Both the position numbers and the translations under genes were made by a program. This document shows, piece after piece, positions 8,696-27,412 of a stretch of DNA of 64,000 nt; the first letter of the stretch is position 1, and each line of letters opens with the position of its first letter. The notes beneath the pieces are model-generated. The model ran no database searches. It worked only from the letters and a program-made list of their open reading frames with translations, and was not told where the DNA came from. The DNA lies in the NCBI GenBank assembly GCA_025464975.1, contig JAODMT010000024.1, positions 434,001 to 498,000 on the forward strand, in the 5' to 3' direction. This stretch comes from Microbacteriaceae bacterium. Lineage in GTDB: Bacteria > Actinomycetota > Actinomycetes > Actinomycetales > Microbacteriaceae.

Positions 8696-10230
8696 ACGCC
8701 CGTCGGTTTTCTGTCCTCTCTATCGCCGCTGCCGCGGTTCTGCTGCTGAGCGCTTGCGTGCCGTCGACCGTCGGCGCCTCGACCTCATCGAGCCAATCGA
8801 AGCCGACCGGGGAGAGCGTGCCCGCCGCGTTGGCCCCGTACTACCATCAGACCCTCACCTGGAAGGACTGCGGCAAGTCGCAGCAGTGCGCAACCGCCGT
8901 CGTTCCGATGGATTGGAATCATCCCTCGCGCGCCACCGACATCTCGCTCGCCCTCACCCGGGCATCCGCGACAGGCAAGCGGCTCGGCTCGCTCTTCGTT
9001 AACCCGGGCGGGCCAGGCGCATCCGGTTACGACCTCGTGCACGACGACCTCAACTTCGCCGTGAGCAAGACCCTGCAGGCAAGCTATGACGTGATCGGCT
9101 GGGACCCCCGGGGGGTTGGACGCTCGACGCCGGTGAAGTGTTACGACAACAAGGGACTGGACAACTTCATCTACGGGGTAGCCAAGAACCCGGTGAACAG
9201 CCCGGCCTGGGTGATAGAGGTGACCGACCAGGCCAAGGACTTCGCCGCGGCCTGCCTGACAAATACCGGTCCGGTGCTGCAGTATGTCGATACCCAGAGC
9301 ACGGTGCGCGACCTCGACATGCTGCGTGCGGTAGTCGGCGACAAGAAGCTCAACTACCTCGGCTACTCCTACGGCAGCGACATCGGCATGTACTACGACG
9401 CGCTCTTCCCGAGCAAGGTCGGCCACCTTGTGCTCGACGGCGCGACGGATTCCACGCTGTCGATCTTCGATGTCGATCTCGCCCAGTCGAGGGCCTTCGA
9501 AGACGAGCTGAAGGCCTACCTCGCCGCCTGCCCGAAGAGCAAGGGCTGCCCGTTCACGGGGTCCGTCGACGATAGCCTTGCGACGATTTCGGCGCTCTAC
9601 GACCGGTTGACGGTATCGCCGATCGTGTCGCCGACCGGCCGCATCCTCGACAACAACGTGCTCGACACCGCCATCAACTCCGCTCTCTACGACCAGTCGT
9701 CTTGGCCGTACCTCAGCGACATGTTCACGGAAATCAACCGGGGTGACACCGACACGGCCTTCGTGCTCGCCGACTCCTACAACGGGCGCAATCCGGATGG
9801 CACCTACAAGGACAACTCGACGGTCGCCTTCCTCGCCATCAGTTGCCTCGACTATCCCGTGGTCACCGATCCCGCAGAGCTGGCCCGGGAGAATGCGCTG
9901 CTGGTCGCTGCGGCACCGACACTCACGCGACCATCCGTAATCGGCGACGTCACCTGCGAAAACTGGCCGTTCCCCAATCGCACACCACCGCCGGTGGTGA
10001 CAGGCAAGGGCAAGGCGCCGATTCTCGTGCTCGCGTCGACCGGCGACCCGGCCACCCCATACCAGTGGGGTGTCGCGCTGTCCAAGGAGCTCGTTGGGGC
10101 GCATCTGGTCACGCGGCAGGGTGAGGGCCACACCGCCTTCAACCGCGGAATTCCGTGTATCGACAACACGGTCAACCGGTACTTCGTCACGGGCGCCGTT
10201 CCGTCGAAGGACCCAAACTGCACGGGCTAA
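8689..10230 (+). CDS. Second alpha/beta-hydrolase lipoprotein (TAP-like), probable CTG start
   Basis: Paralogue of the preceding gene: LFVNPGGPGASG, GWDPRGVGRS, nucleophile elbow GYSYGS, CPFTGSVDDSL, and GEGHTAF. The first ATG/GTG in frame is GTG 8758, which would remove the signal peptide. Reading upstream in frame gives a full lipoprotein signal (N-A-R-R, hydrophobic stretch, LLSAC with Cys23) back to CTG 8689. That CTG overlaps the previous stop and has an excellent Shine-Dalgarno AGAAGGA (8676-8682) six bases before it. No ATG, GTG or TTG exists between the upstream in-frame stop (8659) and 8758. With CTG the protein is 513 residues, matching its 519-residue neighbour. Confidence 0.85.
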   Translation: MLNARRFSVLSIAAAAVLLLSACVPSTVGASTSSSQSKPTGESVPAALAPYYHQTLTWKDCGKSQQCATAVVPMDWNHPSRATDISLALTRASATGKRLGSLFVNPGGPGASGYDLVHDDLNFAVSKTLQASYDVIGWDPRGVGRSTPVKCYDNKGLDNFIYGVAKNPVNSPAWVIEVTDQAKDFAAACLTNTGPVLQYVDTQSTVRDLDMLRAVVGDKKLNYLGYSYGSDIGMYYDALFPSKVGHLVLDGATDSTLSIFDVDLAQSRAFEDELKAYLAACPKSKGCPFTGSVDDSLATISALYDRLTVSPIVSPTGRILDNNVLDTAINSALYDQSSWPYLSDMFTEINRGDTDTAFVLADSYNGRNPDGTYKDNSTVAFLAISCLDYPVVTDPAELARENALLVAAAPTLTRPSVIGDVTCENWPFPNRTPPPVVTGKGKAPILVLASTGDPATPYQWGVALSKELVGAHLVTRQGEGHTAFNRGIPCIDNTVNRYFVTGAVPSKDPNCTG

Positions 10231-11233: not shown

Positions 11234-11878
11234 TCAAGTGTCGCGTGAGGTGCCCAGGCGGGCCAAGAGAGAAAGACGCTTGATCTGACCCGGGTCGGAG
11301 AACGCGGATCCCACCGCGACGGCGGCTGCTCCTGCCGCGATGAACTCCGGCGCGTTATCAGCGTCGATTCCTCCTGTCGCCACAAATTCGACTTCGGGGT
11401 AGGGCCCGTGCTGCGCAGCGATCCACGATGCCCCAAGTTGCGCTGCAGGGAACATCTTCAGCCACCGAAGTCCGAGACGGAGAGCGGTCCCGATCTCGGT
11501 GGAGGTGGCCACCCCGGGAAGATGAGGCAGCCCCAGGCGATGGGATTCCGTGATCACGTCGACGTCCAGACCAGGGGCGACGGTGAACGAGGCGCCGGCC
11601 ACCGCTGCTGCCTGCGCACGGGCGAGAGTGGTGATGGTACCTGCACCCACCGGCTTGCCGATGGCTTCACCCGCCGCGACTGCAGCCTGCAGACATTCGA
11701 GGCTCGAATGCGATTGCAGAGGGATCTCGATTAGCTGCACGCCGCTCTCCCAGGCTTTCTGACACAGCTCGAGAGTGGTTCTCTGATCGAGTCCGCGGAA
11801 GATTCCCATGACGAGGCTCGGTGAAAGGTGATTGGCGAAGAAATCGGCCGAATCCATGTGTTCCCTACTGGTTGTCAT
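11234..11878 (-). CDS. KDPG/KDPGal-type 2-keto-3-deoxy-6-phospho-aldonate aldolase
   Basis: Class I aldolase of 214 residues, usual for the Eda/DgoA family; cleaves a 2-keto-3-deoxy-6-phosphohexonate to pyruvate and glyceraldehyde 3-phosphate. Family landmarks: LIEIPLQSHSS (catalytic Glu position), VGAGTITT, the Schiff-base lysine in WLKMFPAAQ, and VATGGIDADN as phosphate-binding loop. Start ATG 11878 is inside the last 14 bases of the kinase gene, indicating coupling; an extended frame upstream lacks family homology. It is the last gene of a leftward four-gene operon. Whether it prefers the gluco or galacto isomer cannot be told. Confidence 0.9.
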   Translation of the reverse strand: MTTSREHMDSADFFANHLSPSLVMGIFRGLDQRTTLELCQKAWESGVQLIEIPLQSHSSLECLQAAVAAGEAIGKPVGAGTITTLARAQAAAVAGASFTVAPGLDVDVITESHRLGLPHLPGVATSTEIGTALRLGLRWLKMFPAAQLGASWIAAQHGPYPEVEFVATGGIDADNAPEFIAAGAAAVAVGSAFSDPGQIKRLSLLARLGTSRDT

Positions 11879-12821
11879 GATCGAGCCTCGCGGGCCCGTT
11901 CGCTGTCGTGATGACTTCTGGTGAGCCTGGATCCGCGTAGTCGGTTGTCGACCTGAGCACACGTGCGGCGACGTTATGGCCCGATGCGAGTCTCTGCTCG
12001 GCCGGCTGGTGCTTCAAATATGCGCTCAGCCATCCAGCGGCGAACGCGTCTCCTGCTCCGACCGCGTCGACGACAGTGACCCGCGGTGACGGGACCCTAA
12101 CAATCTCAGAGCCGAAGAAGTCGACGGCTTCGACGTCGGCATCTTTGACGATGAGGCGTTCGGGCTTGTCGAGCAACGCGCGCACAGACTCGGCCGTCGG
12201 TGTGCCCCAGAGGCCCTCTGCCTCATCCCGGCCGACGAAGACGATGTCGCTGTTTTGCGCCAGCTCGAGAAGAATGTCGGGAGTGTCCTCGCTTGCGAGC
12301 CTCGGTCGTTGATTGACGTCGAAGCTGACTTTCGCTTCCATCGGGCGGTCGTGGATGAGGTACCTCATGAGGTCGAGGCACTGGGCGCTAAGAGCTGCCG
12401 TGATTCCGGTGAGGTGCACTATATCGGCGGGCGCCGCAAACCAACCAGCGACCATCGTGCGAGACATCCGGGCGGCCGCAGAGCCGGAGCGGTAGTAGTA
12501 GACAGACGTCCCTTCGGGGGCGGGATCCTTGAAGAACACTCCGGTAGGAGCGTCGTCATTCAGGCGCACGAGCGACGTGTCCACGTTTCTCGCGCGCAAC
12601 TCGTCCAAGATGAGCTCGGCGAACGGGTCTTGTCCCAGCTGCCCTGCCCACGCAGCCCGGTGTCCAAGGGCTGCCAGATGCACCGCAACGTTCGATTCGG
12701 CACCTCCCGGGCGAAGTACCATCGGAGTCCTTGCGCCCAGCCGACCGGGCTCGGCGGGGGTAACCAGGACCATGGTCTCGCCGATGCACAGGACTTCAAA
12801 TCCAGGAGGCACAACGCTCAC
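11865..12821 (-). CDS. PfkB-family 2-keto-3-deoxygluconate kinase-like sugar kinase
   Basis: Ribokinase-fold kinase of 318 residues. Motifs: LCIGETMV at the N-terminus, RPGGAESNVAVHLAALG (substrate site), and DAVGAGDAFAAGWL with the catalytic Asp and anion hole near residue 255. It would phosphorylate the 2-keto-3-deoxy sugar acid made by the dehydratases before cleavage by the adjacent aldolase. GTG 12821 is chosen because GGAGG (12828-12832) lies six bases upstream and the start overlaps the preceding stop (GTGA); a GTG at 12848 is also in frame but has no such site. Confidence 0.88.
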   Translation of the reverse strand: MSVVPPGFEVLCIGETMVLVTPAEPGRLGARTPMVLRPGGAESNVAVHLAALGHRAAWAGQLGQDPFAELILDELRARNVDTSLVRLNDDAPTGVFFKDPAPEGTSVYYYRSGSAAARMSRTMVAGWFAAPADIVHLTGITAALSAQCLDLMRYLIHDRPMEAKVSFDVNQRPRLASEDTPDILLELAQNSDIVFVGRDEAEGLWGTPTAESVRALLDKPERLIVKDADVEAVDFFGSEIVRVPSPRVTVVDAVGAGDAFAAGWLSAYLKHQPAEQRLASGHNVAARVLRSTTDYADPGSPEVITTANGPARLDHDNQ

Positions 12822-14335
12822 TGTTCGCCTCCAAACCGCTTTCCCCACTGGGACGACTCGCCGCGGCGAGCGACCTTCTGCGGCACCGACCAGGGGTTCG
12901 CGTCTTGAAGGGGCTCGGGCAGTAACTTCTGCGGTGCGTCTTGGTATGCGACGGGGCGGAGGAAGCGGGAGATGGACGCCGTGCCCACCGACGTGCTCGA
13001 GTCGTTCGTCGTGGCGGGATAGGGGCCGCCGTGCTGCATCGCGGGGGTGACGGCGACACCGGTCGGCCAGCCGCCGAAGATGACGCGGCCGGTGCTCGTC
13101 GAGAGTTGCGCGGCGAGGCCATGCACCCTCAACGGGTCCTCGCTCGGGCCGAGGTGGATAGTTCCTGTCAGGTTGCCGCTGAAGAGCTCCCTGGACAGCG
13201 CCGCGAGGTCCTCACCACTGTCGTAGCCGACCAGGATGGAGAGCGGTCCGAACGCCTCGTCGGTCAGCCGGCCACGGTAGCTCCTCAGCACATCGGCGGT
13301 CACGGAGACGATAGTCGGGGCGGCCCAGACCTGGTCGTCTTCGTCGACGGTCACGCTGCCCTCGGCGATGACGGTGACTCCGGGGGTTGCCAGGATTTCA
13401 TGGCGCCGGTGCGCGTAACCGTGTCCGAGCCCGGGGTAGAGCATCCGCTCGCGCGGCCGTTTTTCGGCATGCAGCCGTAGCTCGGCCTCGAATCCAGTGT
13501 CCGCTGGCGCGAAGAGGAAGCCGGGCTTTGTGCAGAGCTGGCCGGCGGACCCAGAGATGCTGACGATGAACGCCTCGGCGAGACGGCTGCGGTCGGCGTC
13601 GATCGCGTCTCGGGTGACGAACACCGGGTTAACGCTGCCCAGCTCACCATAAAACGGTATCGGCATCGGCCGCTGTGCGGCGATGTCTGCCAGCGTTCGG
13701 CCAGCGCGTACCGAACCGGTGAACGCGGCTGCGCGCAGGCGATCATCGCGCAGGAGCTCGACCCCGGTTACCTGACCGAACACGATCGCGAAGCTGTCGG
13801 TGGGAAACGACGAGGAGCGCAGGGCCTGTTTCACGAGGTCGGCCGTCAGGGCACTCAGCATGGGGTGTCCTGGATGAGCCTTCACGATAACCGGACACCC
13901 CGCGGCCAGTGCTGATGCGGTGTCGCCGCCCGCGACGGAGAAGGCGAACGGGAAGTTGCTCGCCGCGAAGTTCGCGACGGGGCCGACCGGGATGAGCATC
14001 CGCCTGAGGTCGGGGCGTGGGCCCAAGACGAATTCCGGGTCCGCTTCATCGATCCGTGCGTCGAGATACTCTCCGGCGATCACGACATCGGCGAAGAGCT
14101 TGAGTTGAACTATGGTCCGCTTGAGCTCTCCATCGAGACGGCTTTCGGCGAGTCCCGTTTCGCGGACCGCCAGCTGGACGAGTTCCGGCCGTGACTGCTC
14201 GAGCGCGGTGGCAACGGCCAGCAGGCCCGCCGAACGAGTCCGGGGTGGCATCGCCGCCAGCTCCGGCGCAGAAGCGGCTGCTGCATCCATGATGCGGTCC
14301 AGTTCTGCTCTGGTGGTTTCGTCCGGACGGATCAC
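12818..14335 (-). CDS. Alpha-ketoglutarate semialdehyde (2,5-dioxovalerate) dehydrogenase
   Basis: Aldehyde dehydrogenase of 505 residues of the subgroup that oxidises alpha-ketoglutarate semialdehyde with NAD(P)+. Visible motifs: VGPVANFAASNFPFAF, IVKAHPGHP, FTGSVRAGRTLADIAAQRP, the general-base glutamate in ELGSVNPVF, and the catalytic cysteine in GQLCTKPGF. The PIPFYGELGSVNP segment and TKPG after the cysteine are characteristic of KGSADH rather than SSADH. GTG start overlaps the stop of the upstream hydratase gene. Together with that gene it points to an oxidative route ending in alpha-ketoglutarate. Confidence 0.88.
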   Translation of the reverse strand: MIRPDETTRAELDRIMDAAAASAPELAAMPPRTRSAGLLAVATALEQSRPELVQLAVRETGLAESRLDGELKRTIVQLKLFADVVIAGEYLDARIDEADPEFVLGPRPDLRRMLIPVGPVANFAASNFPFAFSVAGGDTASALAAGCPVIVKAHPGHPMLSALTADLVKQALRSSSFPTDSFAIVFGQVTGVELLRDDRLRAAAFTGSVRAGRTLADIAAQRPMPIPFYGELGSVNPVFVTRDAIDADRSRLAEAFIVSISGSAGQLCTKPGFLFAPADTGFEAELRLHAEKRPRERMLYPGLGHGYAHRRHEILATPGVTVIAEGSVTVDEDDQVWAAPTIVSVTADVLRSYRGRLTDEAFGPLSILVGYDSGEDLAALSRELFSGNLTGTIHLGPSEDPLRVHGLAAQLSTSTGRVIFGGWPTGVAVTPAMQHGGPYPATTNDSSTSVGTASISRFLRPVAYQDAPQKLLPEPLQDANPWSVPQKVARRGESSQWGKRFGGEQ

Positions 14336-15117
14336 GTGGTGGTTCCTTTCAAATGAAGTCGGCCGAGATGGCCGAACTCGATGTACACGTCCTCGGCCGG
14401 CTCGACGGGCAAAGGCTCGCCGAAGCTGCCGCTCATGACGATCTGTCCGGCTTCAAGCCGGTGCCCGTGGCGGCCGAGCTCCGACGCCAACCAGGCCACT
14501 GCGGCGGCGGGGTGGCCCATGACCGCGGAGCTCGTCCCAAGCGACTCGCGACCATCGGCTCGGACCACGGCCGGGACTTCCGCGAACAGTGCATCGGTGA
14601 CCTTTACCTGGGGCCCGAGGACGACGGCGGCGTTGCTGACGTCGTCGGCCACCAGCGCGCCGAGACTGGAGGCACCCCGCCAGCGCGTGTCGACGATTTC
14701 GGCCGCGAGGCGCAGGTGCCGCGTTCCTTCGATCACCTCATTCGCCGAGAGTTGTCGCCCCGGAAAGTCGCGCGCGAGGACGAATGCGAATTCCGCCTCG
14801 ATCCGGCGGGCACGGAGATAGGGAAGCCGCGGATGCTCCGGCTCTACCAAAACGGCGCTCGTCAGCAGGAAACCCCATGTCGGCGTCGCGGCGCCGTACG
14901 AGGCACGGGCGCCAACTGAGGTCAGACCGATCTTGTAACCGGCGAGGGTGTCATCAGCCGCCAGATGGAGGTCGAGCAAGGCGGCCTGCGTTCGATAGCC
15001 GTCCGCTTCGGTTAAGTTCGGCGGTACTGCGACTCCGGCCTCATCCGAAGCTCGGCCCATACGAGCGTCGAAGAGTTGTTGGGCCAATTCGGCCACGGCC
15101 TTGTCAGTCAGCTGCAC
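14332..15117 (-). CDS. MhpD/FAH-family 2-keto acid hydratase (candidate 2-keto-3-deoxy-pentonate dehydratase)
   Basis: A 261-residue protein of the 2-keto-4-pentenoate hydratase/2-oxohept-3-enedioate hydratase family. The metal-binding acidic residues appear in RRIEAEFAFVL (E-x-E) and AAEIVDTRW (Glu/Asp), with VMGHPAAAVAWLA and GQIVMSGSFG further on. Related FAH-fold enzymes dehydrate 2-keto-3-deoxy-arabinonate or -xylonate to alpha-ketoglutarate semialdehyde; the coupled KGSADH gene makes that role likely here (inference). First gene of the leftward operon, GTG start. A classical hydratase in aromatic degradation is less likely because no ring-cleavage gene is near. Confidence 0.75.
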   Translation of the reverse strand: MQLTDKAVAELAQQLFDARMGRASDEAGVAVPPNLTEADGYRTQAALLDLHLAADDTLAGYKIGLTSVGARASYGAATPTWGFLLTSAVLVEPEHPRLPYLRARRIEAEFAFVLARDFPGRQLSANEVIEGTRHLRLAAEIVDTRWRGASSLGALVADDVSNAAVVLGPQVKVTDALFAEVPAVVRADGRESLGTSSAVMGHPAAAVAWLASELGRHGHRLEAGQIVMSGSFGEPLPVEPAEDVYIEFGHLGRLHLKGTTT

Positions 15118-15143
15118 TACGTCCCCTTCGCTCGTAGGGCCGT

Positions 15144-15215
15144 TTGACAGGCCCGGCGCTGCGTGTAAGTATAGTGCACACTACGCAGCACCCCCTGCAT
15201 ATAGTGCAGTGTGCA
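15144..15215. promoter_or_regulatory. Divergent promoter region with twin operator-like boxes
   Basis: Between the leftward and rightward operons of the island lie two related boxes, TATAGTGCACACTA (15170-15183, containing the 5-2-5 palindrome TAGTG-CA-CACTA) and TATAGTGCAGTGTGCA (15200-15215). A perfect TTGACA (15144-15149) precedes the first box; TATACT is present on the minus strand (15174-15169). The 30-bp offset puts the boxes about three helical turns apart. The IclR regulator at the end of the island is the obvious candidate to bind them. Spacing of TTGACA to TATAGT (20 bp) is long, so the exact -10 is uncertain. Confidence 0.55.
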
Positions 15216-15245
15216 AACAGCGCCCTACCTAACGAAAGCCGATCA

Positions 15246-16379
15246 ATGAGGATCACCGCCGTCGAGACGTTCCACGTCGAACCGCGTTGGCTCATCGTCA
15301 AGATGACGACCGATGCCGGAATCGTCGGATATGGCGAGCCTGTCGTGGAAGGCAGGGCAAGGACCGTCGAGACGACCGTCCGCGAGATGTCCGAATACCT
15401 CATTGGCAAGGACCCGCGCCGCATTGAGCACCACTGGCAGGCGATCTATCGCGGCGGGTTTTACCGCGGAGGCCCTATCCTCACCAGCGCGCTGAGTGGG
15501 TTGGAGCAGGCTATGTGGGACATCAAGGGCAAGGCCTTGGGCGTGCCAGTCTACGAGCTCCTGGGCGGCCATGTCCGAGACAGTGTGCGCATGTATGCCC
15601 ACTGCCATGGCGACACCCCTGAGGCGCTCGCCGCCACGGCGCACAAGCGAATGGCCGATGGCTTCCGCGCGGTGAAACTGGCGGTCGACGGACCCGCATG
15701 GCCGATCGAGACGCCCCAGTGGGTGGATGACCAGGTGGCGCGGGTCGCGCTCGTGCGGGATATTGTTGGTTCGTCGGTGAACATCGCCGTCGACTTCCAT
15801 GGCCGGGTCGGCCCGGCGGTGGCGAACACTCTGATCTCCGAACTGGCCTACCTGCGGCTGATGTTCGTAGAGGAGCCCTGTCTTCCTGACAACGCGAGTG
15901 CGATGGCGGACATCGCGGCTCGCTCTTCCATTCCGATCGCTACCGGTGAGCGCTTGTTCACCCGGTGGCAGTATCGAGAGCTGCTCGAGAGCAAGGCTGT
16001 CGCCGTTGTTCAGCCCGACCTGTGCCACGTCGGCGGCATCTTCGAAGCGCGGAAGATCGCCGCGATGGCCGAGACCTATTACGTCTCGGTGGCTCCCCAC
16101 AATCCTTTGGGGCCAATCTCTTTGGCGGCCTGTCTGCAGCTGGACGCCTGCACACCGAACTTCCTCATTCAGGAGCACCCGACGCTCGAAGACGGCAGCG
16201 ACCTTGGCAACGGCATCCTCGTCGAGCCCTTCGAGATCGTCGGCGGTTCCATTGCGATCCCCACCGGGCCAGGGCTGGGAATCGAGATCGACGAGGACGC
16301 CCTGGCGCGCATAAAGACAAACGGGGACTGGGAATCGCCCAGGTTCTGGCACGAGGACGGCTCGGTCGCAGAGTGGTGA
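15246..16379 (+). CDS. dgoD: D-galactonate dehydratase-like enzyme (enolase superfamily)
   Basis: Mandelate-racemase subgroup dehydratase, 377 residues; removes water from an aldonate to give a 2-keto-3-deoxy sugar acid. It is close to DgoD from memory of the family: PRWLIVKMTTD start, GEPVVEGRARTVE, YRGGFYRGGPIL, and the C-terminal WHEDGSVAEW. Metal and catalytic residues are all visible: Asp and His in AVDFHGRV, Glu in FVEEPCL, Glu in ATGERLF, and the general acid/base His in APHNPLGP. ATG 15246 follows GAAAGCCGATCA with a weak ribosome site. First gene of the rightward operon. Confidence 0.88.
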   Translation: MRITAVETFHVEPRWLIVKMTTDAGIVGYGEPVVEGRARTVETTVREMSEYLIGKDPRRIEHHWQAIYRGGFYRGGPILTSALSGLEQAMWDIKGKALGVPVYELLGGHVRDSVRMYAHCHGDTPEALAATAHKRMADGFRAVKLAVDGPAWPIETPQWVDDQVARVALVRDIVGSSVNIAVDFHGRVGPAVANTLISELAYLRLMFVEEPCLPDNASAMADIAARSSIPIATGERLFTRWQYRELLESKAVAVVQPDLCHVGGIFEARKIAAMAETYYVSVAPHNPLGPISLAACLQLDACTPNFLIQEHPTLEDGSDLGNGILVEPFEIVGGSIAIPTGPGLGIEIDEDALARIKTNGDWESPRFWHEDGSVAEW

Positions 16380-16404
16380 CCGGGCGCATATCAAAAGGAG
16401 CAAG

Positions 16405-17721
16405 ATGAAACTCACCAAGCCACTGGCGGCGCTGTTGGGACTCGGTCTGGCCGGTGCGGTGCTTACTGGTTGCAGTTCTCAGGCCGGTGCACAGAGTACC
16501 TCCGCCCCCGCCAATGCGAAGGTCACGCTGACGGTCCTCTCACCACTGGTGGTGGAGACTCCGTCGGGCGATGTGGAGAAGGCGTACGCCGCGGAATACC
16601 AGAAGCTGCACCCGAACGTGACGATCGAGTTCATCGGAGTTCCGATGAATGACGCCTACGCGAAGATCAGCACGCTCGCCACCGGTGGCCAGATGCCGGA
16701 CATCTTCATCAACTCGCCGGAGTTCTCCGCGAAGGCGAAGCAGCTCGGAATCGTCGCAGACATGGACAAGCTTCTGGGCGCTGACTACCTCAAGGGTTTC
16801 GCTAAGGCGCCATTGGATCAAGCGAAGCTGGGCGGCAAGACGCAGTTCGCTCCGTACTTCACGATCCCAACCGGTCTGCTGTACCGCAGCGACCTCTTCA
16901 AGCAGGCCGGGATCACCCCGCCCACCACGTGGAGCGCGTTCGAAGCCGACGCCAAGAAACTCACGGTGGACACCAACAATGACGGGCAGACCGACCGGTG
17001 GGGCTTCGCAATGGTGGGAACGAACGACGGGTCCGGTGGATCCCGCTTCATCCCAGTGATGCGGACGTTCGGCGCGAAGGAGCTGGTGAAGTCTGGCAGC
17101 AGCTGGACGACCCAGTTCGACTCCGCCGGCGCTATCAAGGCGTTCAAGCTCTATGGCGATCTGGTTAACAAAGATCATGCGGTGCCGCCAGGGCCGCTGC
17201 AGACGGGCTACGCTCAAGCGAACGCGCTGCTTGCGACGGACAAGGCTGCGATGATGATCACGGGCCCGCACACCATCGGTGCGATCCTCACGCAGAATCC
17301 TGCGCTCAAGGGGAAGCTGGCCGGCGCCCCGCTCCCGCACGCTCCCGGTGAGAAGTCCGTCTCAGTGCTCGGCATGCTGGGATGGTCCGTTTCGCAGGAC
17401 AGCAAGCATCAGCAGGCAGCCGCAGACTACATCAAGTTCGTACTGGACAAGAAGAACCAGCTCGCCTTCAACGCTGCCACTGGGCGGTTCCCCACCCGGA
17501 ACGACGCCTTGGCAGACCCGCAGGTGAACCGGCCCGAACTGAAGGGCTTCATCGCCGCGCAGGACAACGCCTTCATTCTTCCGGCCGTACCGTACTACGC
17601 GAACCTGCAGGTCATTGCGGGTGGCGACTATCAGCAGGTGATCTTGAACAAAATGACGCCCGAGCAGGCGGCCAAGGACGCGGCCGAGCAGACCAAGAAG
17701 AGCATCTCCGACAACGGATGA
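16405..17721 (+). CDS. Sugar-type ABC transporter substrate-binding lipoprotein
   Basis: Receptor of the island's importer, 438 residues. Signal peptide with lipobox LTGC (Cys23). The mature protein shows SBP_bac_1 features: EYQKLHPNVTIEFIGVP, GQMPDIFINSPEF, PYFTIPTGLLYRSDLFKQAGI (in part: GLLYRSDLFKQAGI) and TPPTTWSAFEADAKKL. A strong ribosome site AAAAGGAGC precedes the ATG. Its position between a galactonate-type dehydratase and permeases suggests it binds a sugar acid or its glycoside. Most abundant product of the operon is expected, as a hairpin follows the gene. Confidence 0.9.
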   Translation: MKLTKPLAALLGLGLAGAVLTGCSSQAGAQSTSAPANAKVTLTVLSPLVVETPSGDVEKAYAAEYQKLHPNVTIEFIGVPMNDAYAKISTLATGGQMPDIFINSPEFSAKAKQLGIVADMDKLLGADYLKGFAKAPLDQAKLGGKTQFAPYFTIPTGLLYRSDLFKQAGITPPTTWSAFEADAKKLTVDTNNDGQTDRWGFAMVGTNDGSGGSRFIPVMRTFGAKELVKSGSSWTTQFDSAGAIKAFKLYGDLVNKDHAVPPGPLQTGYAQANALLATDKAAMMITGPHTIGAILTQNPALKGKLAGAPLPHAPGEKSVSVLGMLGWSVSQDSKHQQAAADYIKFVLDKKNQLAFNAATGRFPTRNDALADPQVNRPELKGFIAAQDNAFILPAVPYYANLQVIAGGDYQQVILNKMTPEQAAKDAAEQTKKSISDNG

Positions 17722-17735
17722 CGTTGCACTCGCCA

Positions 17736-17762
17736 GCGGGGGCCCTCGAGGAGAGCCCCCGC
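17736..17762 (+). terminator. Intra-operon hairpin after the substrate-binding protein gene
   Basis: Perfect 8-bp stem GCGGGGGC/GCCCCCGC with an 11-base loop containing CCTCGAGG. No T-tract follows. Such stems between receptor and permease genes often stabilise the upstream mRNA or attenuate read-through, giving more receptor than permease. Confidence 0.55.
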
Positions 17763-17782
17763 CCAGGCAGAAAGAAGAGCAC

Positions 17783-18748
17783 ATGGCACTCCAGACACAG
17801 GCCCGGCCCAGCAGCCAGGCCGGCCCAGGCCCGATGCCGCAAGGTGGCAAGAGCCCGCGGGCCGCCAGACTTACGCCTCACGCGATCCGAGATCAGCGAG
17901 CGGGCCTTTCCTTCATCTCGCCGTCCCTGCTGGTAATGGTCGCCTTGATCATCTACCCGTTGGGCTACGGCCTCTACATCAGCTTCTTCCGCACGAATCT
18001 CCGCAACCAGTGGGACTTCGTTGGTTTCAAGTTCTTTATCCAGACGCTCACCGACCCCGCCTTCATCCATTCGATCGGCGTCACCCTGCTGTTCGCGGTC
18101 CTGGTCGTGCTAGGCAACCTCGTCATCGGGACGGCTCTCGCGCTGATCCTGAACACCGAGATGCGGTTCCGCACGCTGTTCCGCGCGATCCTCATCCTTC
18201 CGTGGCTATTCCCAGACGTTGTCGTCGCGCTGATCTTCAAGTGGATATACAACCCGCTCTACGGTCTGCTGAACTACGGGCTTATGACGGTGCACCTCAT
18301 AGACAAACCCATCGCCTGGCTCGACGATCCGAACCTCGCCTTCGTTGCCGTGGTCATCTCGTGCATCTGGAAGGGCTACCCGCTCGTGATGATCCTCATC
18401 CTGGCAGGACTCCAGTCCATCCCCAAGGAGCGCTATGAAGCGGCCTCGCTTGACGGTGCCGGGCCGATCGGCTCGTTTCGCCATATCACGTTGCCGGGGC
18501 TCCTGCCGGTGCTCATCGTGAGCATCATCCTCGACACGGTGTGGTGGTTCAAACACTTCACAATCGTGTGGCTGATGACCGCCGGCGGCCCGATTGACGC
18601 GACGAAAGTCGTAAGCATCGACATCTATCGCGTGGCGTTCCAAAACTTCGACTTCGGGCGCGCCTCCGCGATGGCTGTGATCGTCTTCGTAATCTGCCTT
18701 GCCATCAGCATCGTCTACCGGAAGTTGGTACGTGACAATGAAAGCTAG
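17783..18748 (+). CDS. Sugar ABC transporter permease (MalF/UgpA type)
   Basis: Membrane permease, 321 residues with six predicted hydrophobic segments after a 35-residue Gln/Ala/Pro-rich cytoplasmic tail. FISPSLLVMVALIIYPLGYG is the first helix region; the EAA loop reads YEAASLDGAGPIGSFRHITLPGL (in part: EAASLDGAG). ATG 17783 is preceded by AGAAAGAAGAG. It overlaps the next permease gene by 11 bases. Confidence 0.9.
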   Translation: MALQTQARPSSQAGPGPMPQGGKSPRAARLTPHAIRDQRAGLSFISPSLLVMVALIIYPLGYGLYISFFRTNLRNQWDFVGFKFFIQTLTDPAFIHSIGVTLLFAVLVVLGNLVIGTALALILNTEMRFRTLFRAILILPWLFPDVVVALIFKWIYNPLYGLLNYGLMTVHLIDKPIAWLDDPNLAFVAVVISCIWKGYPLVMILILAGLQSIPKERYEAASLDGAGPIGSFRHITLPGLLPVLIVSIILDTVWWFKHFTIVWLMTAGGPIDATKVVSIDIYRVAFQNFDFGRASAMAVIVFVICLAISIVYRKLVRDNES

Positions 18749-19577
18749 AACCATGCGGTCAGGCGCGAACCCGGCCTACTACGTGCTGCTCAGCGTCGCG
18801 GCGCTGTTCGTCCTGATGCCAGTGTTCTGGATGGTGTCCACGTCTCTGAAGCCTGAAACTGAGCTCTTCTTGGCCCCGCCACGCTTGTGGGCCTCGAGTC
18901 CCGACGTGAGCGCGTTCATCCGGGTCTTCACCGACTATCCATTCGTGGACTACTTCCGCAACAGCCTGGTCGTCGTATCGGCTTCCACGGTTATCTCCCT
19001 AGCCTTCTCGACTCTGTCGGCCTACGGCTTATCGCGGTTCGAATTCCGCGGGAGGGCCTCCTTCCTCACCTTCTTGCTGATCTCGCAGATGTTCCCGTCG
19101 ATCATGCTGCTAATCCCGTACTACAAGATCATGGAGACCTTCGGTCTGGTGAACACTCAGGTCGCTCTGATCCTGACGTACGTGTCTTTCACGATCCCGT
19201 TCTGCTCGTGGATGATGTATGGCTACTTCAAGAGCATCCCGCGCGAGCTTGACGAAGCCGCATCCATCGACGGAGCCGGTCGGTTCGCCACGTTCGCCCG
19301 GATCGTTCTGCCGCTGACGCTCCCCGGGGTGGTGGCAACAGCGATCTACTCGTTCGTCACCGGCTGGAACGAATACATGTTTGCCCTCATCCTCACAAGT
19401 TCCGAGGACATGAAGACAGTCCCGGTGGGAATCGGGCAGCTCATCGGCCAATACAAAATTCAGTGGAACGATCTGATGGCGTCGTCGCTCTACGCGATCA
19501 TCCCTCTCATGATCATCTTCATCTTCCTTCAGCGGTATCTGATAAGCGGCCTCACCGCAGGCGGCGTTAAGAGTTGA
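18738..19577 (+). CDS. Sugar ABC transporter permease (MalG/UgpE type)
   Basis: Second permease, 279 residues, six hydrophobic segments. LMPVFWMVSTSLKPETELF at the N-terminus and the EAA loop DEAASIDGAGRFATFARIVLPL (in part: DEAASIDGAG) are diagnostic. ATG 18738 lies within the end of the first permease. No ATP-binding gene is present anywhere in the island, so the complex must use a shared MsiK/UgpC-type ATPase encoded elsewhere, as known for many actinobacterial sugar importers. Confidence 0.9.
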   Translation: MKARTMRSGANPAYYVLLSVAALFVLMPVFWMVSTSLKPETELFLAPPRLWASSPDVSAFIRVFTDYPFVDYFRNSLVVVSASTVISLAFSTLSAYGLSRFEFRGRASFLTFLLISQMFPSIMLLIPYYKIMETFGLVNTQVALILTYVSFTIPFCSWMMYGYFKSIPRELDEAASIDGAGRFATFARIVLPLTLPGVVATAIYSFVTGWNEYMFALILTSSEDMKTVPVGIGQLIGQYKIQWNDLMASSLYAIIPLMIIFIFLQRYLISGLTAGGVKS

Positions 19578-19582
19578 GCAAC

Positions 19583-20740
19583 ATGTCAAAAATTACAAAA
19601 CTCGAGGTGCTGCATGTGCGCCCTCGGTTCTCGTTCCTTCTCCTGCACACCGACGAGGGTCTCGTAGGGCTCGGGGAGGCCGCTCTCGAAGGCCGCGACA
19701 AGGTCGTCGAGTCGGCGATCCACGAACTCGAGTACCTGCTGATCGGGCAGGATTCGCGTCGGATCGAGTACCTCTGGCTGCTCATGTACCGGGCGACTTT
19801 CTATCCTGCCGGCTCCGTGATCGGGAGCGCCATCAGCGCCATTGACCAGGCGCTGTGGGACTTGCAGGGAAAGCGCCTAGGGGTCCCGGTGCACGAGCTC
19901 CTCGGAGGAACCGTCCGTGATCGAGCACGCGTGTACAAGCACGTGAACACTCGCGACGACGTCCCCGCCGATCCGGGCATCCACGCTGAAGACTTGAACG
20001 AGTTCCTCGGGCTCGCGCGAGCAGCGGTCGCCGAGGGCTACACCATGATCAAGACCGCTCTTCCGGGGCCGGCGCGTTTCGTCGAGTCCCGCAGGTTCAT
20101 CGACCGCGAGGTTGAGCGTTTCGCGCTTCTTCGCGACGCGATCGGGCCGGACGTAGACTTCGGGATTGACTTCCACGGCCGGGTGAGTTCGGCACTGGCG
20201 ATCCAGCTGATCCAGGCGATCGAACCGCTGCACCCCCTCTTTGTCGAGGAGCCGGTCACTCCTGAGGACGTCGACGCCATGGCGCACCTTGCACGAAGGA
20301 CCAATGTGCCGATCGCTGCGGGCGAGCGCCTGTTCACCCGGTGGGGTTTCCAGCGATTGCTAGAGCAACGCGCCGTGTCGATCGTGCAGCCCGATCTCTC
20401 GCACTGCGGTGGAATCTCTGAAGGGCGCAAGATCGCGGCCATGTCGGAGACCTACGGGGTCGGCTTCGCTCCGCACAACCCTCTCGGCCCGGTGAACCTC
20501 GCAGCCAGCCTGCACCTGAGCTTCACTATCGAGAACTTTGTTGCCCAAGAGCAGATCACTTTGGGCGATGGCCTCATCACACGACCGTTCGAGCTCGTCG
20601 ACGGTTATGTCGCTGCCCCCGAGGGGCCGGGCCTGGGTGTAGAGCTCGACAGGGACGCCATCGAGCCACTGCTCTATGACGGCGGCTGGAAGCTTCCCTA
20701 CTGGTTCGACGCTCACGATTCGGGAGTTGCAAAATGGTAG
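19583..20740 (+). CDS. Second galactonate-dehydratase-like enolase-superfamily enzyme
   Basis: Paralogue of the first dehydratase, 385 residues. It keeps GIDFHGRV, FVEEPVT, AAGERLF and APHNPLGP, so metal ligands and catalytic histidines are intact; it has a longer loop around VNTRDDVPADPGIH and ends in GVAKW instead of SVAEW. The divergent capping region suggests a different sugar-acid substrate. ATG 19583 is used; a TTG at 19574 overlapping the permease stop would add three residues. The gene overlaps the next start by seven bases. Confidence 0.85.
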   Translation: MSKITKLEVLHVRPRFSFLLLHTDEGLVGLGEAALEGRDKVVESAIHELEYLLIGQDSRRIEYLWLLMYRATFYPAGSVIGSAISAIDQALWDLQGKRLGVPVHELLGGTVRDRARVYKHVNTRDDVPADPGIHAEDLNEFLGLARAAVAEGYTMIKTALPGPARFVESRRFIDREVERFALLRDAIGPDVDFGIDFHGRVSSALAIQLIQAIEPLHPLFVEEPVTPEDVDAMAHLARRTNVPIAAGERLFTRWGFQRLLEQRAVSIVQPDLSHCGGISEGRKIAAMSETYGVGFAPHNPLGPVNLAASLHLSFTIENFVAQEQITLGDGLITRPFELVDGYVAAPEGPGLGVELDRDAIEPLLYDGGWKLPYWFDAHDSGVAKW

Positions 20741-21714
20741 GCGCATCGCGGCTGGAGCCGTATCGCAGGCTTCTCCGCGAGGCCGGTTCTCCCGGCGCGG
20801 ACGAGGTCAGTCCTTCGGCGAAAGTGTTCCCGGACGGAGCTCATTATCGCGTCGAGATCCCGAGCACCGAAGGGGTTGAGGGAGTGCGCGCGGTCTTCCA
20901 GGCAGCCGACGAGTTCGGCGTCCCCGTGCACCGCGTCTCGCAGGGGAGCGGCGCAATGCTGCTCGCGAACGACGAGATACGCGAGATGGTTGCGTTGTGC
21001 CACGAACGCAACGTTGAACTCAGTCTCTTCGTCGGACCGCGCCCCGCGTGGGACGTGTCCGGACAGCGCTCCTTCGGCGGAAACCGCCTCGAGGGCGCTG
21101 ATCAGCTCGTGTACTCCATGGACGACCTCGCTCGGGCCGCCGAGCTCGGCGTTCGTGGCGCGCTGGTGTCCGATGAGGGGGTGCTGCTCGCGGCGGCGTT
21201 GATGCGTCAGCGCGGGATGCTGCCCGCCGATTTCGTCATCAAGGGTTCCGTGCAGCTCATGGCGAGCAATCCATTGTCCGTTCGGATGCTTCAGGGCGCG
21301 GGCATGGACACAATCAACCTCGCGCCGGGAATGAGCCTCGCCCGGCTCTCGTCGGTGCGCGGTGCCGTCGACATCCCCATCGACTTTTACGTCGAGTCGC
21401 CGGACAACCTAGGGGGCTTCGTTCGCCACTACGAGATCCACGACATCATCCGGACCCTCAGCCCGGTGTACGTAAAGTTCGGCCTGCGCAACCATCCTGA
21501 CGTCTACCCCAGCGGCAGCCACCTGCAGCCGCTGACGACTGTCCTCTCGCGCGAGCGAGTGCGACGTGCGAGGATCGGCCTGGACCTGCTCGAGCGCCTG
21601 GGCAACGACTTCTTGATGACGGACCTTGGAGCGCCGGCACGGCTGACCGGCCTCGGAGTGCCCCAGCCTTCGGCCGCAACCGCCCCGATGGTGGCCGATG
21701 TGACACTCAGGTGA
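20734..21714 (+). CDS. U32-like TIM-barrel protein of unknown function
   Basis: A 326-residue soluble protein. Its pattern of short strands followed by helices (YRVEIPSTEGVEGV, ELSLFVGPR, GALVSDEGVLL, FVIKGSVQLMASNP, INLAPGMSLARLSSVRGAVDIPID) resembles the barrel of the peptidase U32/UbiU-UbiV group, but the cysteine cluster and the E-F-HGA-C motif of those proteins are not seen. It is translationally linked to the second dehydratase (ATGGTAG overlap), so a role in sugar-acid metabolism, such as an isomerase, lyase or epimerase step, is more likely than proteolysis. I do not recognise a characterised relative. Confidence 0.7.
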   Translation: MVGASRLEPYRRLLREAGSPGADEVSPSAKVFPDGAHYRVEIPSTEGVEGVRAVFQAADEFGVPVHRVSQGSGAMLLANDEIREMVALCHERNVELSLFVGPRPAWDVSGQRSFGGNRLEGADQLVYSMDDLARAAELGVRGALVSDEGVLLAAALMRQRGMLPADFVIKGSVQLMASNPLSVRMLQGAGMDTINLAPGMSLARLSSVRGAVDIPIDFYVESPDNLGGFVRHYEIHDIIRTLSPVYVKFGLRNHPDVYPSGSHLQPLTTVLSRERVRRARIGLDLLERLGNDFLMTDLGAPARLTGLGVPQPSAATAPMVADVTLR

Positions 21715-21869: not shown

Positions 21870-21911
21870 GTGAGTAAGCAACTGGATGCACCGCCGGCAG
21901 GTATCGGATGA
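21870..21911 (+). CDS. 13-residue leader ORF overlapping iclR start
   Basis: GTG 21870 opens a frame of 13 codons (MSKQLDAPPAGIG) ending in a TGA that overlaps the ATG of the IclR gene as ATGA. AAGGGG lies six bases upstream. It may be a translational coupling peptide, or the original N-terminus of the regulator separated by a one-base change, since IclR proteins often begin with a short tail before SQSLERAL. Confidence 0.35.
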   Translation: MSKQLDAPPAGIG

Positions 21912-22675
21912 GTCAGTCACTGGAGAGGGCCCTGACGATCTTAAAGCTCGTCGGAGACGGGCCCAAGACGATCACGCAGCTTGGGCAGCACCTGGAGGTG
22001 CACGCAACCACCGCGCTGCGGCTGGTCCGCACCCTGAAAGATAACCGGTTCCTCGAGCCCGTCGGCGATGGTACGTATCGTCTGGGCTCGACACTGATCG
22101 ATCTTGGGCAGCGCGCTCTGGATGAGAACGATCTGCGCACGGTCGGTCACTCTCATCTCGTTAGGCTGAATGAGATCACGAACGAGACCGTGCACTCCGC
22201 CGCGCTGGACGGAAGCGTCATCACCTATGTGGACAAGGTGGAGAGTCGGCATCCCGTGAGGATTGAATCGTTCGTCGGCCGGGAAGTACTGAAGCACTGC
22301 ACGGGTGTGGGGAAGGCGATCCTGTCGTTCCTGCCGGAGGAGGAGCTGGAGCGCCACTTGGCAGGCATGGATTTCGAGTACTTCACGCCTACCACGATCA
22401 CGGACCGGGAAGCCTTCCGCCGCGAATTGCAACTCACTAGGGAGCGCGGCTACGCCATGGACGATGAGGAGCACGAGCCCGGCATCTGTTGTGTGGCCGT
22501 GCCGATCTTCTCCGCTTCCGGACGGGTGACGCATTCTCTCAGCGTGTCTGCACCATCGAGTCGAATGACTTTAATCCAGCTGCTCGAGTTCCTGCCGGAC
22601 ATCAATAGCGCGGGCGAAAAGATTTCGGAAGCGCTGGGCTATCGAAGCCAGGCGCACGACGCGCAGCCCACCTGA
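21908..22675 (+). CDS. IclR-family transcriptional regulator of the sugar-acid island
   Basis: A 255-residue regulator. The N-terminal winged HTH (SQSLERALTILKLV, then TTALRLVRTLKDNRFLEPVG) is followed by the IclR effector domain with VHSAALDGSVITYVDKVES, HCTGVGKAIL and GICCVAVPIFSASG. It is the last gene of the island and the only regulator in it, so it likely controls the divergent operons at 15.1-15.2 kb in response to a sugar acid or 2-keto-3-deoxy intermediate. Start ATG 21908 gives the full HTH; an upstream GTG is in another frame. Confidence 0.9.
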   Translation: MSQSLERALTILKLVGDGPKTITQLGQHLEVHATTALRLVRTLKDNRFLEPVGDGTYRLGSTLIDLGQRALDENDLRTVGHSHLVRLNEITNETVHSAALDGSVITYVDKVESRHPVRIESFVGREVLKHCTGVGKAILSFLPEEELERHLAGMDFEYFTPTTITDREAFRRELQLTRERGYAMDDEEHEPGICCVAVPIFSASGRVTHSLSVSAPSSRMTLIQLLEFLPDINSAGEKISEALGYRSQAHDAQPT

Positions 22676-23745: not shown

Positions 23746-23831
23746 TCGAGTGAGGCTCTCGGCGACGACCCGGTGGCCAATCGGCCGGGATACTTCTTGA
23801 TCTCCGGCCCCCCGTGACGGAGAATGCGGGC

Positions 23832-24659
23832 ATGAGCAACGTGGCTCCGCTCAATCCTCCCGACCTAACTCGGGTCAACTTTTCGTCGCGTACCGATGGC
23901 GTGGCGACGGTGCAGAAGACGCTTTCGATCCTCGAGATCGTTGCGGAACGCGGCGGAGCGACCGCCCGCGAAGTCTCGGACGCCCTGAGCGTGCCGATCC
24001 CAACCGTCTACCGGCTGCTCCAAGAACTCGTGCACGCGGAGTATCTCGTGCATCTCAAGGGCGCGAAGCGCTTCGAGTTGGGGTACAAGCTGCACGGTCT
24101 CGGCGTCTCCCTGCACCGCCAGCTCGGCGTGCCGGTCCCGGTGCGCGCCGCGATCGACGCGCTGCACGAGGACGCCGGCGCCGCCGCATACTTCGCGGTG
24201 TACCGCGGAGCGGATGTCGTGATCGCGTACGTGGCCGATTGCCCGAAGCATCCGCGGGTCACGCCCCTCAAGTTCGGCTTCCACGAGGCGGCGCATGCAA
24301 CGGCGTTCGGCAAGATCATGCTCGCCGGAATGAGCATCGAACAACGGGAGCAGTACCTCCAGGTGCACGGCATTTCCCCGCTCACCGCGTCGACGATCAC
24401 CGACCCGGGGGAGCTTGACCGGCACCTCGCGGATGTCGCGACCCTCGGGATCGCCTGGGAACGCGAAGAATTCGTGCCGGGGAAGGTCTGCGCGGCCGTC
24501 GGTGTGCGCAACGCCGCCGGGATGGTCGTCGGCTCGGTCGCGATCAGCACTGATGCCGCCGACATGCCAGACCGTGAACACGAGGTGGAGAATCTCCTGC
24601 GTGAGGGTTCGGCCAAGGTCAGCCGCTATTTGCGGTCCGGATCGACACAGCGGCGCTGA
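23832..24659 (+). CDS. IclR-family transcriptional regulator
   Basis: A 275-residue regulator with a longer N-terminal tail. HTH region GVATVQKTLSILEIV to IPTVYRLLQELVHAEYLVHLKG, then the effector domain with YFAVYRGADVVIAYVAD, EAAHATAFGKIMLAGM and KVCAAVGVRNAAG. ATG 23832 lies six bases after GAGAAT, compatible with a leaderless start; GTG 23814 would add six residues. It faces the convergent PEBP/GMC/alcohol dehydrogenase genes and may control them. Confidence 0.85.
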   Translation: MSNVAPLNPPDLTRVNFSSRTDGVATVQKTLSILEIVAERGGATAREVSDALSVPIPTVYRLLQELVHAEYLVHLKGAKRFELGYKLHGLGVSLHRQLGVPVPVRAAIDALHEDAGAAAYFAVYRGADVVIAYVADCPKHPRVTPLKFGFHEAAHATAFGKIMLAGMSIEQREQYLQVHGISPLTASTITDPGELDRHLADVATLGIAWEREEFVPGKVCAAVGVRNAAGMVVGSVAISTDAADMPDREHEVENLLREGSAKVSRYLRSGSTQRR

Positions 24660-24737
24660 CTGCGGGCTGCGGCCCACGAATCGAGGCTGCACGCGGGATG
24701 CGGCCCCGACGGGCCGAGGCCGCATCCAATCGCTCGG

Positions 24738-25265
24738 CTACTTGGCCTCCCACCACGGCGCGACGACGGCGCGCGCGAGGGTGTGCCCCGAGAGGTTGAA
24801 ACCCAGAAACGCCGGCGTTGACCCATGGTCAATGCCGAGGGACTCAACATCCACCGCGTGAACCGCGATGTAATAGCTGTGCTTGCCGTGCCCGGCGGGG
24901 GGAGCGGCGCCGAGGAACCTCCGCAGGCTCGCATCGTTCGCAAGCTGGAACGCACTGGCGGGCAGTGCCGAGCCGCTGTCATCACCCGCACCGGAAGGCA
25001 GTTCGGTCGTCGACACGGGGATGTCCGCGACGGCCCAGTGCCAGAATCCGCTGCCGGTCGGGGCGGATGGGTCGTAGACCGTGATGGCGAAACTCTTCGT
25101 GTCTTCGGGGAATCCCGACCAGGAAAGCTGCGGCGAAGTATCCGAGCCGCCTGCGCCGAAGATTCCGCTCACCTGGGCGGTGGGCAGTTCCTGGCCATCG
25201 GCAACGTCGGTGCTTGTCAGTGTGAAGGTCGGAACCTCCGCGATGGCGTCATATGGGCTTGTCAT
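24738..25265 (-). CDS. PEBP/YbhB-YbcL family protein
   Basis: A 175-residue phosphatidylethanolamine-binding-like protein. The anion-binding pocket motifs are clear: [14 protein letters not shown] and [18 protein letters not shown]. Bacterial members have no firm function. ATG 25265 has GGAAGGAA upstream on its strand; a longer frame upstream is unrelated. It is the last gene after the GMC oxidoreductase, 11 bases apart, so it belongs to the same leftward operon. Confidence 0.9.
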
Positions 25266-25276
25266 TCTGTTCCTTC

Positions 25277-27381: not shown

Positions 27382-27412
27382 CGCTGGTCTCCTTGCTTGA
27401 GTGGGGGTGGGG

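Follow-up and report, generated by a model that had tools for sequence, protein, structure and literature searches.

A sugar-acid gene island of a Microbacteriaceae bacterium with two candidate outlets for 2-keto-3-deoxy acids and a recurrent U32-like neighbour of sugar-acid dehydratases

A ten-gene island in which two downstream chemistries share one gene group

We analysed a stretch of 64,000 nucleotides from a Microbacteriaceae bacterium (assembly GCA_025464975.1, contig JAODMT010000024.1, positions 434,001 to 498,000; hereafter the window), which contains at 11234–21714 an island of ten genes with predicted roles in sugar-acid breakdown. We give slightly better than an even chance to the view that this island is a single catabolic locus that gives 2-keto-3-deoxy acids two outlets: hexonates would leave through a kinase and an aldolase, and pentonates through dehydration to alpha-ketoglutarate semialdehyde (KGSA). 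From the open reading frame inventory and family scans, the genes fall into two divergent groups. The minus-strand group, from 15117 down to 11234, encodes an MhpD/HpaH-like hydratase, a KGSA dehydrogenase (KGSADH), a PfkB kinase and a KDPG-type aldolase. The plus-strand group (15246–21714) encodes the dehydratase DgoD1, the binding protein and both permeases of an ABC sugar importer, a second dehydratase, DgoD2, and a U32-like protein; an IclR regulator gene comes after it, at 21908.

The hydratase stop and the KGSADH start overlap by 4 nt (at 14335), as do the KGSADH stop and the GTG start of PfkB (at 12821), which has GGAGG upstream; the aldolase gene comes next. Overlaps of this kind are not expected of chance open frames, and both downstream chemistries therefore look like one operon, from which hydratase, KGSADH, kinase and aldolase would be co-transcribed. 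They are also the strongest fact behind the sequence-only reading of this DNA, which had proposed a phosphorylative and an oxidative route combined in a dual-range C5/C6 pathway. The gene set named there (two DgoD-type dehydratases, PfkB, KDPG-type aldolase, hydratase and KGSADH-like dehydrogenase) was found in place, with matching families. On the plus strand, the DgoD2 stop overlaps by 7 nt the ATG (20734) of the U32-like gene (20734–21714), the tenth gene of the island, which that reading had not mentioned.

In the pathway that we propose, imported sugar acids, or sugars oxidised to them, would be converted by the DgoD dehydratases to 2-keto-3-deoxy acids. The hexonate product (2-keto-3-deoxygalactonate type) would be phosphorylated at its C6 hydroxyl by PfkB and split by the KDPG-type aldolase to pyruvate and glyceraldehyde-3-phosphate. 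A pentonate product would be barred from this route because it has no C6 hydroxyl, and a two-outlet pathway therefore makes chemical sense. It may instead pass to KGSA via the MhpD/HpaH-like hydratase, or via the U32-like protein, and KGSADH would oxidise KGSA to alpha-ketoglutarate. L-Arabinonate, which would give 2-keto-3-deoxy-L-pentonate, is our guess for the pentonate because it shares the galactonate configuration; our best-guess substrates are thus L-arabinonate and D-galactonate, both derivable from arabinogalactans.

Dehydratases, kinase and aldolase

Both dehydratases scored above the cut-off (311) of the galactonate dehydratase model NF010624, DgoD1 with 526.3 bits and DgoD2 with 409.5 bits, and DgoD1 matched PDB 3rr1 at 1e-113. 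The DFHG, EEP, GER and PHNP motifs, which we take to be catalytic, are kept in both. We searched DgoD1 at a threshold of 1e-75 in 199 genomes of the same family and observed matches in 23, the window's own included. One locus was read in 20 of the 22 other genomes, which leaves out G091 and G197 as well as another locus of G107. Near the DgoD genes of these 20 loci, a KDPG-type aldolase was present in 12, PfkB in 10, a type-III KGSADH in one and a U32-like gene in none. In the tree, both window DgoDs were placed in one clade with 17 family DgoDs (support 100/97) that are mostly linked to an aldolase or kinase, DgoD2 being a long branch. The window's genome (G000, 3.2 Mb) has thirteen matches to the MR/MLE C-terminal domain and hence many sugar-acid or related enolase-superfamily enzymes.

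The best NCBIfam model for PfkB was KDG/KDGal kinase (127 bits, cut-off 400), and its nearest PDB entry is the KDG kinase 1v19. The aldolase scored 134 bits against TIGR01182 (cut-off 156) and 118.5 bits against NF006600 (cut-off 207). The most similar module was found at locus L260 (DgoD 52%, PfkB 46%, aldolase 46%), followed by L275 (47, 45 and 48%), and the window PfkB joins the PfkBs of these two loci with a support of 99/97. The grouping of the kinase with its two most similar modules, together with the frequencies of aldolase and PfkB at the DgoD1 homologs, leaves the phosphorylative half of the earlier proposal well supported; DgoD, aldolase and kinase are, by synteny, a galactonate (De Ley–Doudoroff-like) module with a predicted activity on D-galactonate.

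It is conceivable that the whole set serves one hexonate, and that hydratase and KGSADH branch off to deal with a by-product or with an intermediate that has been damaged. The position of both DgoDs in a galactonate-type clade, the single importer and the one gene group for all four downstream enzymes are consistent with this. We consider it unlikely, as KGSA is a C5 compound and we know of no way in which these genes could lead from a C6 2-keto-3-deoxy monoacid to KGSA.

Dehydratase, kinase and aldolase are shared with the De Ley–Doudoroff pathway of D-galactonate as outlined in the accessible part of PMC5507952, where one published locus has its kinase gene clustered with an IclR-family regulator, as near the island. 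The island differs in that its PfkB kinase and Eda-like aldolase are below the equivalog cut-offs, in its two DgoDs and in having an oxidative outlet in the same gene group.

KGSADH and the hydratase

The nearest PDB entries of the dehydrogenase are 1eyy (1.7e-102) and 3v4c (2.2e-94); its score against the KGSADH equivalog NF042993 was 66 bits (cut-off 770). KGSADH matches at 1e-60 occur in 102 of the 199 family genomes. We read 16 loci (L199–L214) around the best homologs, with 59–63% identity, clustering the neighbours and scanning one member per cluster. A DAO-type FAD oxidase was observed in 13 of them, a gene of the proline-racemase/hydroxyproline-epimerase family in eight and a DHDPS-family gene in six. 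Hydroxyproline breakdown ends in KGSA, and because the homologs sit in this hydroxyproline-type context, assignment of the dehydrogenase as a probable KGSADH, by homology and by the context of its homologs, is a sound call. A partial precedent for the combination with a sugar-acid dehydratase is locus L277, with DgoD, type-III KGSADH and lactonase.

The hydroxyproline-type genes beside the closest homologs would also suit a different source of KGSA (hydroxyproline or aldarates), with KGSADH and hydratase as mere neighbours of the sugar-acid genes. Consistent with this, the window KGSADH is the only match at 1e-60 in its genome (7 of 21 candidates scored). We find this explanation quite unlikely, as the KGSADH gene overlaps PfkB, a sugar-acid dehydratase gene diverges from the minus-strand group, and no hydroxyproline gene was found by the Pfam scan of the island.

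The hydratase is the weak link of the pathway reading. It had no Pfam match at 1e-3, hence none to PF01557 or PF00701, and its closest model, HpaH (TIGR02312), gave 137 bits, below the cut-off of 351.5. It matches PDB 2eb4 at 8.7e-30, and the motifs E107-x-E109, E140 and K62 are kept. From its previous description as MhpD/FAH-type, the MhpD part stands, in the form MhpD/HpaH-like, whereas the protein is not XylX-like. Its best match was 35% in the 199 family genomes and 37% in a collection of 84,980 species, the scan of which needs exact 8-residue peptides and can miss distant orthologs (119 relatives found, 80 kept); no other genome among 396 of the phylum reached 1e-40. We read 109 loci of hydratase relatives, 29 of 3.7 kb each from the family genomes, 69 of which had a match, and 80 from the species scan (3.6 to 20.8 kb, 52 of them at least 15 kb). 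A DgoD, IlvD or U32-like gene was present in none of the 109, of which 29 are only 3.7 kb long. The place of this hydratase in a sugar-acid operon thus looks unusual. As no close relative was found, and no sugar-acid context at the loci read around more distant ones, we infer its reaction from its operon partners. The oxidative half of the dual-route proposal therefore holds at its end step, by the context of the KGSADH homologs, and is conjectural at its middle step.

In four loci (L060, L065, L088 and L100), the hydratase relative is accompanied by further hydratases, with a KGSADH-like gene about 9 kb away. Together with the closeness of the hydratase to HpaH, this would be expected if hydratase and aldehyde dehydrogenase (ALDH) were an HpaH/HpaE-like pair left from an aromatic meta-cleavage pathway. 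We rejected this very improbable explanation: the ALDH scored 69 bits against HpaE (cut-off 638) and is closest to 1eyy and 3v4c, and the ten island proteins gave no Pfam match to a ring-cleavage family.

The U32-like gene recurs beside sugar-acid dehydratases

The U32-like protein scored 21.3 bits against PF01136, under the gathering cut-off of 22.4, and had no NCBIfam model match at 1e-3; its relatives are labelled 'U32 family peptidase' in both annotated records seen. We surveyed 46 other loci of 4.5 to 19.9 kb with such a gene (4 plasmid records, 4 family genomes and 38 phylum genomes), the phylum search scoring at most five candidates per genome at set thresholds. The loci are not independent, as 15 come from family f18 and 9 from family f5. 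We observed the following. A DgoD-type dehydratase lies within 3 kb of the U32-like gene in 27 of the 46 loci, and an IlvD/EDD dehydratase is near it in five (three within 60 bp, two at 4.2 kb; all within 4.3 kb). A type-III KGSADH was found in four loci (three within 350 bp), PfkB in two and KDPG aldolase in none. An FAH-type gene together with an ALDH was seen in eight (L215, L216, L218, L219, L227, L229, L301 and L305), the FAH-type gene being within 3 kb in three and at 7–9 kb in five. Among the 40 loci with at least 40% identity, DgoD or IlvD is present in 32; the remaining eight have a type-III KGSADH (L195, L197 and L227), a general ALDH (L047, L229 and L301, which are weak evidence) or neither (two loci). 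The ALDH of L305, the only one of the general type that was scanned, scored 544 bits against NF042993 (cut-off 770).

The U32-like gene precedes DgoD in f18 and follows it in f5, in a Thermomicrobium plasmid and in the window, and this difference in order speaks for repeated association. Two of the five IlvD/EDD partners were scanned; the best match was the general subfamily PRK06131, then L-arabinonate dehydratase NF009559 (857 and 688 bits, cut-off 882). As DgoD and IlvD are unrelated dehydratase families with a common U32-like partner, the neighbourhoods suggest that the partner acts on the type of product that both families form. D-Fuconate, L-arabinonate and D-galactonate are all substrates of one characterised L-arabinonate dehydratase (PMC9795676), and by analogy it is suggestive that a single substrate configuration may be common to the DgoD and IlvD partners. 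In L305 (with IlvD) and L219 (with DgoD), dehydratase, U32-like gene, FAH-type gene, ALDH and PfkB lie in one stretch; for the PfkB of L305, the best-fitting model was that of KDG/KDGal kinase (180 bits, cut-off 400).

For both alignments, 32 of the 33 listed references were used; L223 was left out, and the frames of L181, L192 and L194 were dropped owing to a stop in the automatic extension. Residues E41, D147, K170, S172, N179, R209, D217, R231, K248 and R277 are among those invariant in the 33 sequences, and E41, K170, D217 and K248 lie in predicted strands. UbiU/UbiV/TrhP-type U32 members have an iron-sulfur cysteine set; no invariant or nearly invariant cysteine was present in the 33-sequence alignment. 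The AlphaFold model, built with 29 sequences (pLDDT 88), has the fold of a TIM barrel. Its first seven Foldseek hits are class-II aldolases, and the U32 protein 5d88 is at rank 8 (E 1.8e-6), with loose TM values of ~0.4–0.6. VIA-align against 5d88 gave Z 14.7 and an rmsd of 2.8 over 185 aligned residues, tied with other TIM barrels: CutC, RuBisCO-like proteins, the U32 protein Mk0906 and aldolases lie within ~1.5 Z, and no family was singled out. The island protein thus shares with the U32 family (PF01136; 5d88) a weak profile match and, in the model, a TIM barrel that resembles other TIM-barrel families about as closely, and differs from it in scoring below the Pfam cut-off, in the lack of an invariant cysteine and in its sugar-acid dehydratase neighbours.

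These data raise the possibility that the 2-keto-3-deoxy acid is a substrate of the U32-like protein and not of the MhpD-like hydratase. The U32-like protein would then represent a third family of 2-keto-3-deoxypentonate (KDP) dehydratases or be a non-phosphorylating aldolase, and the hydratase would do something else or take the other C4 stereoisomer. In L196, an IlvD/EDD dehydratase, the U32-like gene, a type-III KGSADH, a lactonase and an importer are neighbours, and among the 17 genes called (12 scanned by Pfam, five known by homology) neither an FAH nor a DHDPS gene was found; L197 has an SDR, the U32-like gene, KGSADH and a lactonase-cluster gene. The gene set of L196 suggests a KDP dehydratase. 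An aldolase fits equally well with the eight loci that have FAH and ALDH genes and with the 22 of 27 DgoD loci in which the downstream genes looked for (KDPG aldolase, PfkB, KGSADH-type ALDH, FAH and DHDPS) were all unseen. The invariant K170 and K248 and the class-II aldolases at the head of the Foldseek list speak for a U32-like enzyme of either kind. A simple replacement of the FAH-type KDP dehydratase by the U32-like protein, as L196 and L197 might be read, was rejected as too simple, since an FAH-type gene accompanies the U32-like gene and an ALDH in eight of the 46 loci. It is further weakened by the genomes of L196, L197 and L227, which carry 6, 2 and 7 FAH matches, respectively, and two DHDPS matches each. 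With these counts and the loose fold match, for which many TIM barrels tie, we regard a U32-like enzyme in place of the hydratase as possible and rather doubtful. Searches of the open-licence PMC literature did not find U32 together with galactonate dehydratase, and neither 'U32 family peptidase' together with Weimberg nor a U32-like sugar-acid enzyme was among the matches listed.

Several neighbourhoods have other features. In L195 (5180–17412), the U32-like gene is near genes for IclR, a purine/cytosine-type permease, a CN hydrolase, an amidohydrolase, an Asp/Glu/hydantoin racemase, a D-serine-dehydratase-domain protein and a 60% KGSADH homolog, with no sugar-acid dehydratase hit in the context. 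A divergent (32%) U32-like gene of an Enterobacter plasmid (L048, 7971–8909) occurs with genes for an aminotransferase, an iron-containing redox enzyme, MFS and an M14 metallopeptidase, perhaps a biosynthetic cluster. L226 has, at 91–2761, a pair of neighbouring genes resembling family-4 glycosidases, which fall in one sequence cluster and of which one was scanned by Pfam, and also ABC importer, ALDH, DgoD, U32-like and MBL genes; the glycosidase-like genes are a possible hint at a glycoside source of the acids.

Comparison with known routes and weighing of the two-outlet pathway

The Weimberg pathway, or Route II, as described in the accessible parts of PMC6336799 and PMC9795676, shares with the island a sugar-acid dehydratase, a candidate KDP dehydratase, KGSADH and a sugar ABC importer. 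According to the same part of the review, KDP dehydratases belong to two families, FAH and DHDPS/NAL (PMC9795676). The candidate of the island is HpaH/MhpD-like and not of the XylX-type FAH or DHDPS/NAL kind; its dehydratase is of the MR/MLE family, there called typical of archaea, and not IlvD/EDD; and its oxidative genes are combined with kinase and aldolase. In Rhizobium leguminosarum, an L-arabinose/D-galactose 1-dehydrogenase and an L-arabinonate dehydratase accept both C5 and C6 substrates that share one configuration and are therefore a precedent for a dual-range pathway, with an IlvD/EDD dehydratase where the island has MR/MLE (PMC9795676, same part). The dual C5/C6 range suggested for the island from the outset thus fits known chemistry, given the substrates of L-arabinonate dehydratase, and the pathway reading is partly supported; the alternative named with it, a single unusual substrate, also keeps some probability. 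The concept of a dual-range dehydratase is already in print there; what is new lies in the set of genes, in the hydratase and in the U32-like partner.

In the loci read, no KDPG aldolase gene shared a locus with a U32-like gene (0 of 46 and 0 of 20). Both are present in the window, which therefore joins two modules that were apart at those loci. The window is not alone in mixing kinase and oxidative genes, as L277, L219 and L305 are partial parallels. More tentatively, and at somewhat less than an even chance, the window may offer one dehydratase product three alternative exits: a further route, the route through the MhpD-like hydratase and KGSADH, and the one through kinase and aldolase.

A number of observations weigh against the two-outlet pathway. 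Both DgoDs are inside the galactonate-type clade, and neither is marked as a pentonate dehydratase (with DgoD2 flagged as a long branch). Kinase and aldolase scores are under the curated cut-offs of the functional models, and 11 of the 17 inner branches of the KGSADH tree are open. The hydratase falls outside both KDP-dehydratase types of the review (PMC9795676), and no ortholog was found that could lend it context. No aldolase or PfkB occurred together with a type-III KGSADH in the 20 family DgoD loci, and the Pfam scan of the island proteins found no aldose dehydrogenase or lactonase inside the interval.

The U32-like survey adds to these points. DgoD, IlvD and both ALDH types were all unseen at L303 and L310, with at least 40% identity, and at all six loci with 32–33%. 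The general ALDH query (the ALDH of L226) is unspecific, matching 27 of the 109 hydratase loci, and was dropped from the main claims. The two IlvD/EDD neighbours scanned are below the L-arabinonate dehydratase cut-off; a role with D-xylonate is possible. Type-III KGSADH was found in 40 and the U32-like gene in 39 of the 396 phylum genomes, and both in 12, nine of them from f5; in the 15 f18 genomes with a U32-like gene there was no type-III KGSADH at 1e-60 (at most three candidates scored per genome). The step of the U32-like protein may be that of a dehydratase or of an aldolase. Regulatory signals were also faint: a search for TAGTGYRCACTA was not above chance (2 matches against 1.83 expected), the stretch common to the divergent region and the region before IclR scored 12 (shuffles: mean 9.1, 95th percentile 11, maximum 14), and a sigma-70 scan gave 0 sites against 1.9 expected.

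If the two-outlet pathway is true, two chemistries with neighbouring genes would empty a dehydratase product pool of mixed chain length, and genes that carry the label 'U32 family peptidase' would be candidate metabolic enzymes of sugar-acid metabolism. KDP dehydratases and aldolases are of interest for the bioconversion of hemicellulose sugars (PMC9795676, in the accessible part), and a new family of either would have practical use.

Regulator and flanking genes

Coordinates of the island and of the adjoining regulator are given in Table 1. The IclR protein (21908–22675) scored 164 bits against NF045644 (BhcR, cut-off 350) and 161 bits against NF011671 (KdgR, cut-off 275). The sequence-only reading had put both routes under one regulator; this gene adjoins the island, but no binding site was established, and the claim does not carry over beyond a presumed IclR control. 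In the 128-bp divergent region, TATAGTGCA occurs twice, 30 bp apart. This word was chosen after reading the region; it is expected 0.04 times in the 64 kb and occurs three times, with the third copy lying within PfkB, and the pair is a candidate operator, no more.

Table 1. Genes and promoter region of the island, with the adjoining regulator (window coordinates)
Feature	Position	Strand	Evidence and remarks
KDPG/KDPGal-type (Eda-like) aldolase	11234..11878	-	PF01081 113 bits, TIGR01182, PDB 1wa3/1vlw, KMFPA motif; start 11878 or 11857
PfkB, 2-keto-3-deoxy-sugar-acid kinase-like	11865..12821	-	PF00294 161 bits; GTG start 12821
Type-III KGSADH-like ALDH	12818..14335	-	PDB 1eyy, 3v4c; context of 59-63% homologs
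MhpD/HpaH-like hydratase, first gene of minus-strand group; proposed KDP dehydratase	14332..15117	-	TIGR02312, PDB 2eb4, motifs
Divergent promoter region, two TATAGTGCA copies (15170, 15200)	15118..15245		Candidate operator only
DgoD1, galactonate-dehydratase family (MR/MLE)	15246..16379	+	NF010624, PDB 3rr1, tree clade
ABC sugar importer substrate-binding protein	16405..17721	+	PF01547 135 bits
ABC importer permease A	17783..18748	+	PF00528 77 bits
ABC importer permease B (start uncertain)	18738..19577	+	PF00528 75 bits
DgoD2, second, divergent galactonate-dehydratase family protein	19583..20740	+	NF010624 409.5 bits; long branch, same clade as DgoD1
Short U32-like TIM-barrel protein	20734..21714	+	PF01136 21.3 bits, neighbourhood survey, alignment, model pLDDT 88
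IclR-family regulator, KdgR/BhcR-like	21908..22675	+	PF01614 166 bits; NF045644, NF011671 below cut-offs

Adjoining the island, the region 23814–28441 has a second IclR gene, a GMC oxidoreductase with an upstream 210-aa gene that had no Pfam match, and a zinc alcohol dehydrogenase; enzymes of this region could supply the island with its acids by oxidising sugars. A Gfo/Idh/MocA oxidoreductase is encoded at 32953–33948, and this family includes aldose 1-dehydrogenases (PMC9795676, in the part cited). On the other side, at 7136–10230, are two tandem TAP-like alpha/beta hydrolases with a TetR regulator after them; the hydrolase pair looks like the product of a gene duplication.

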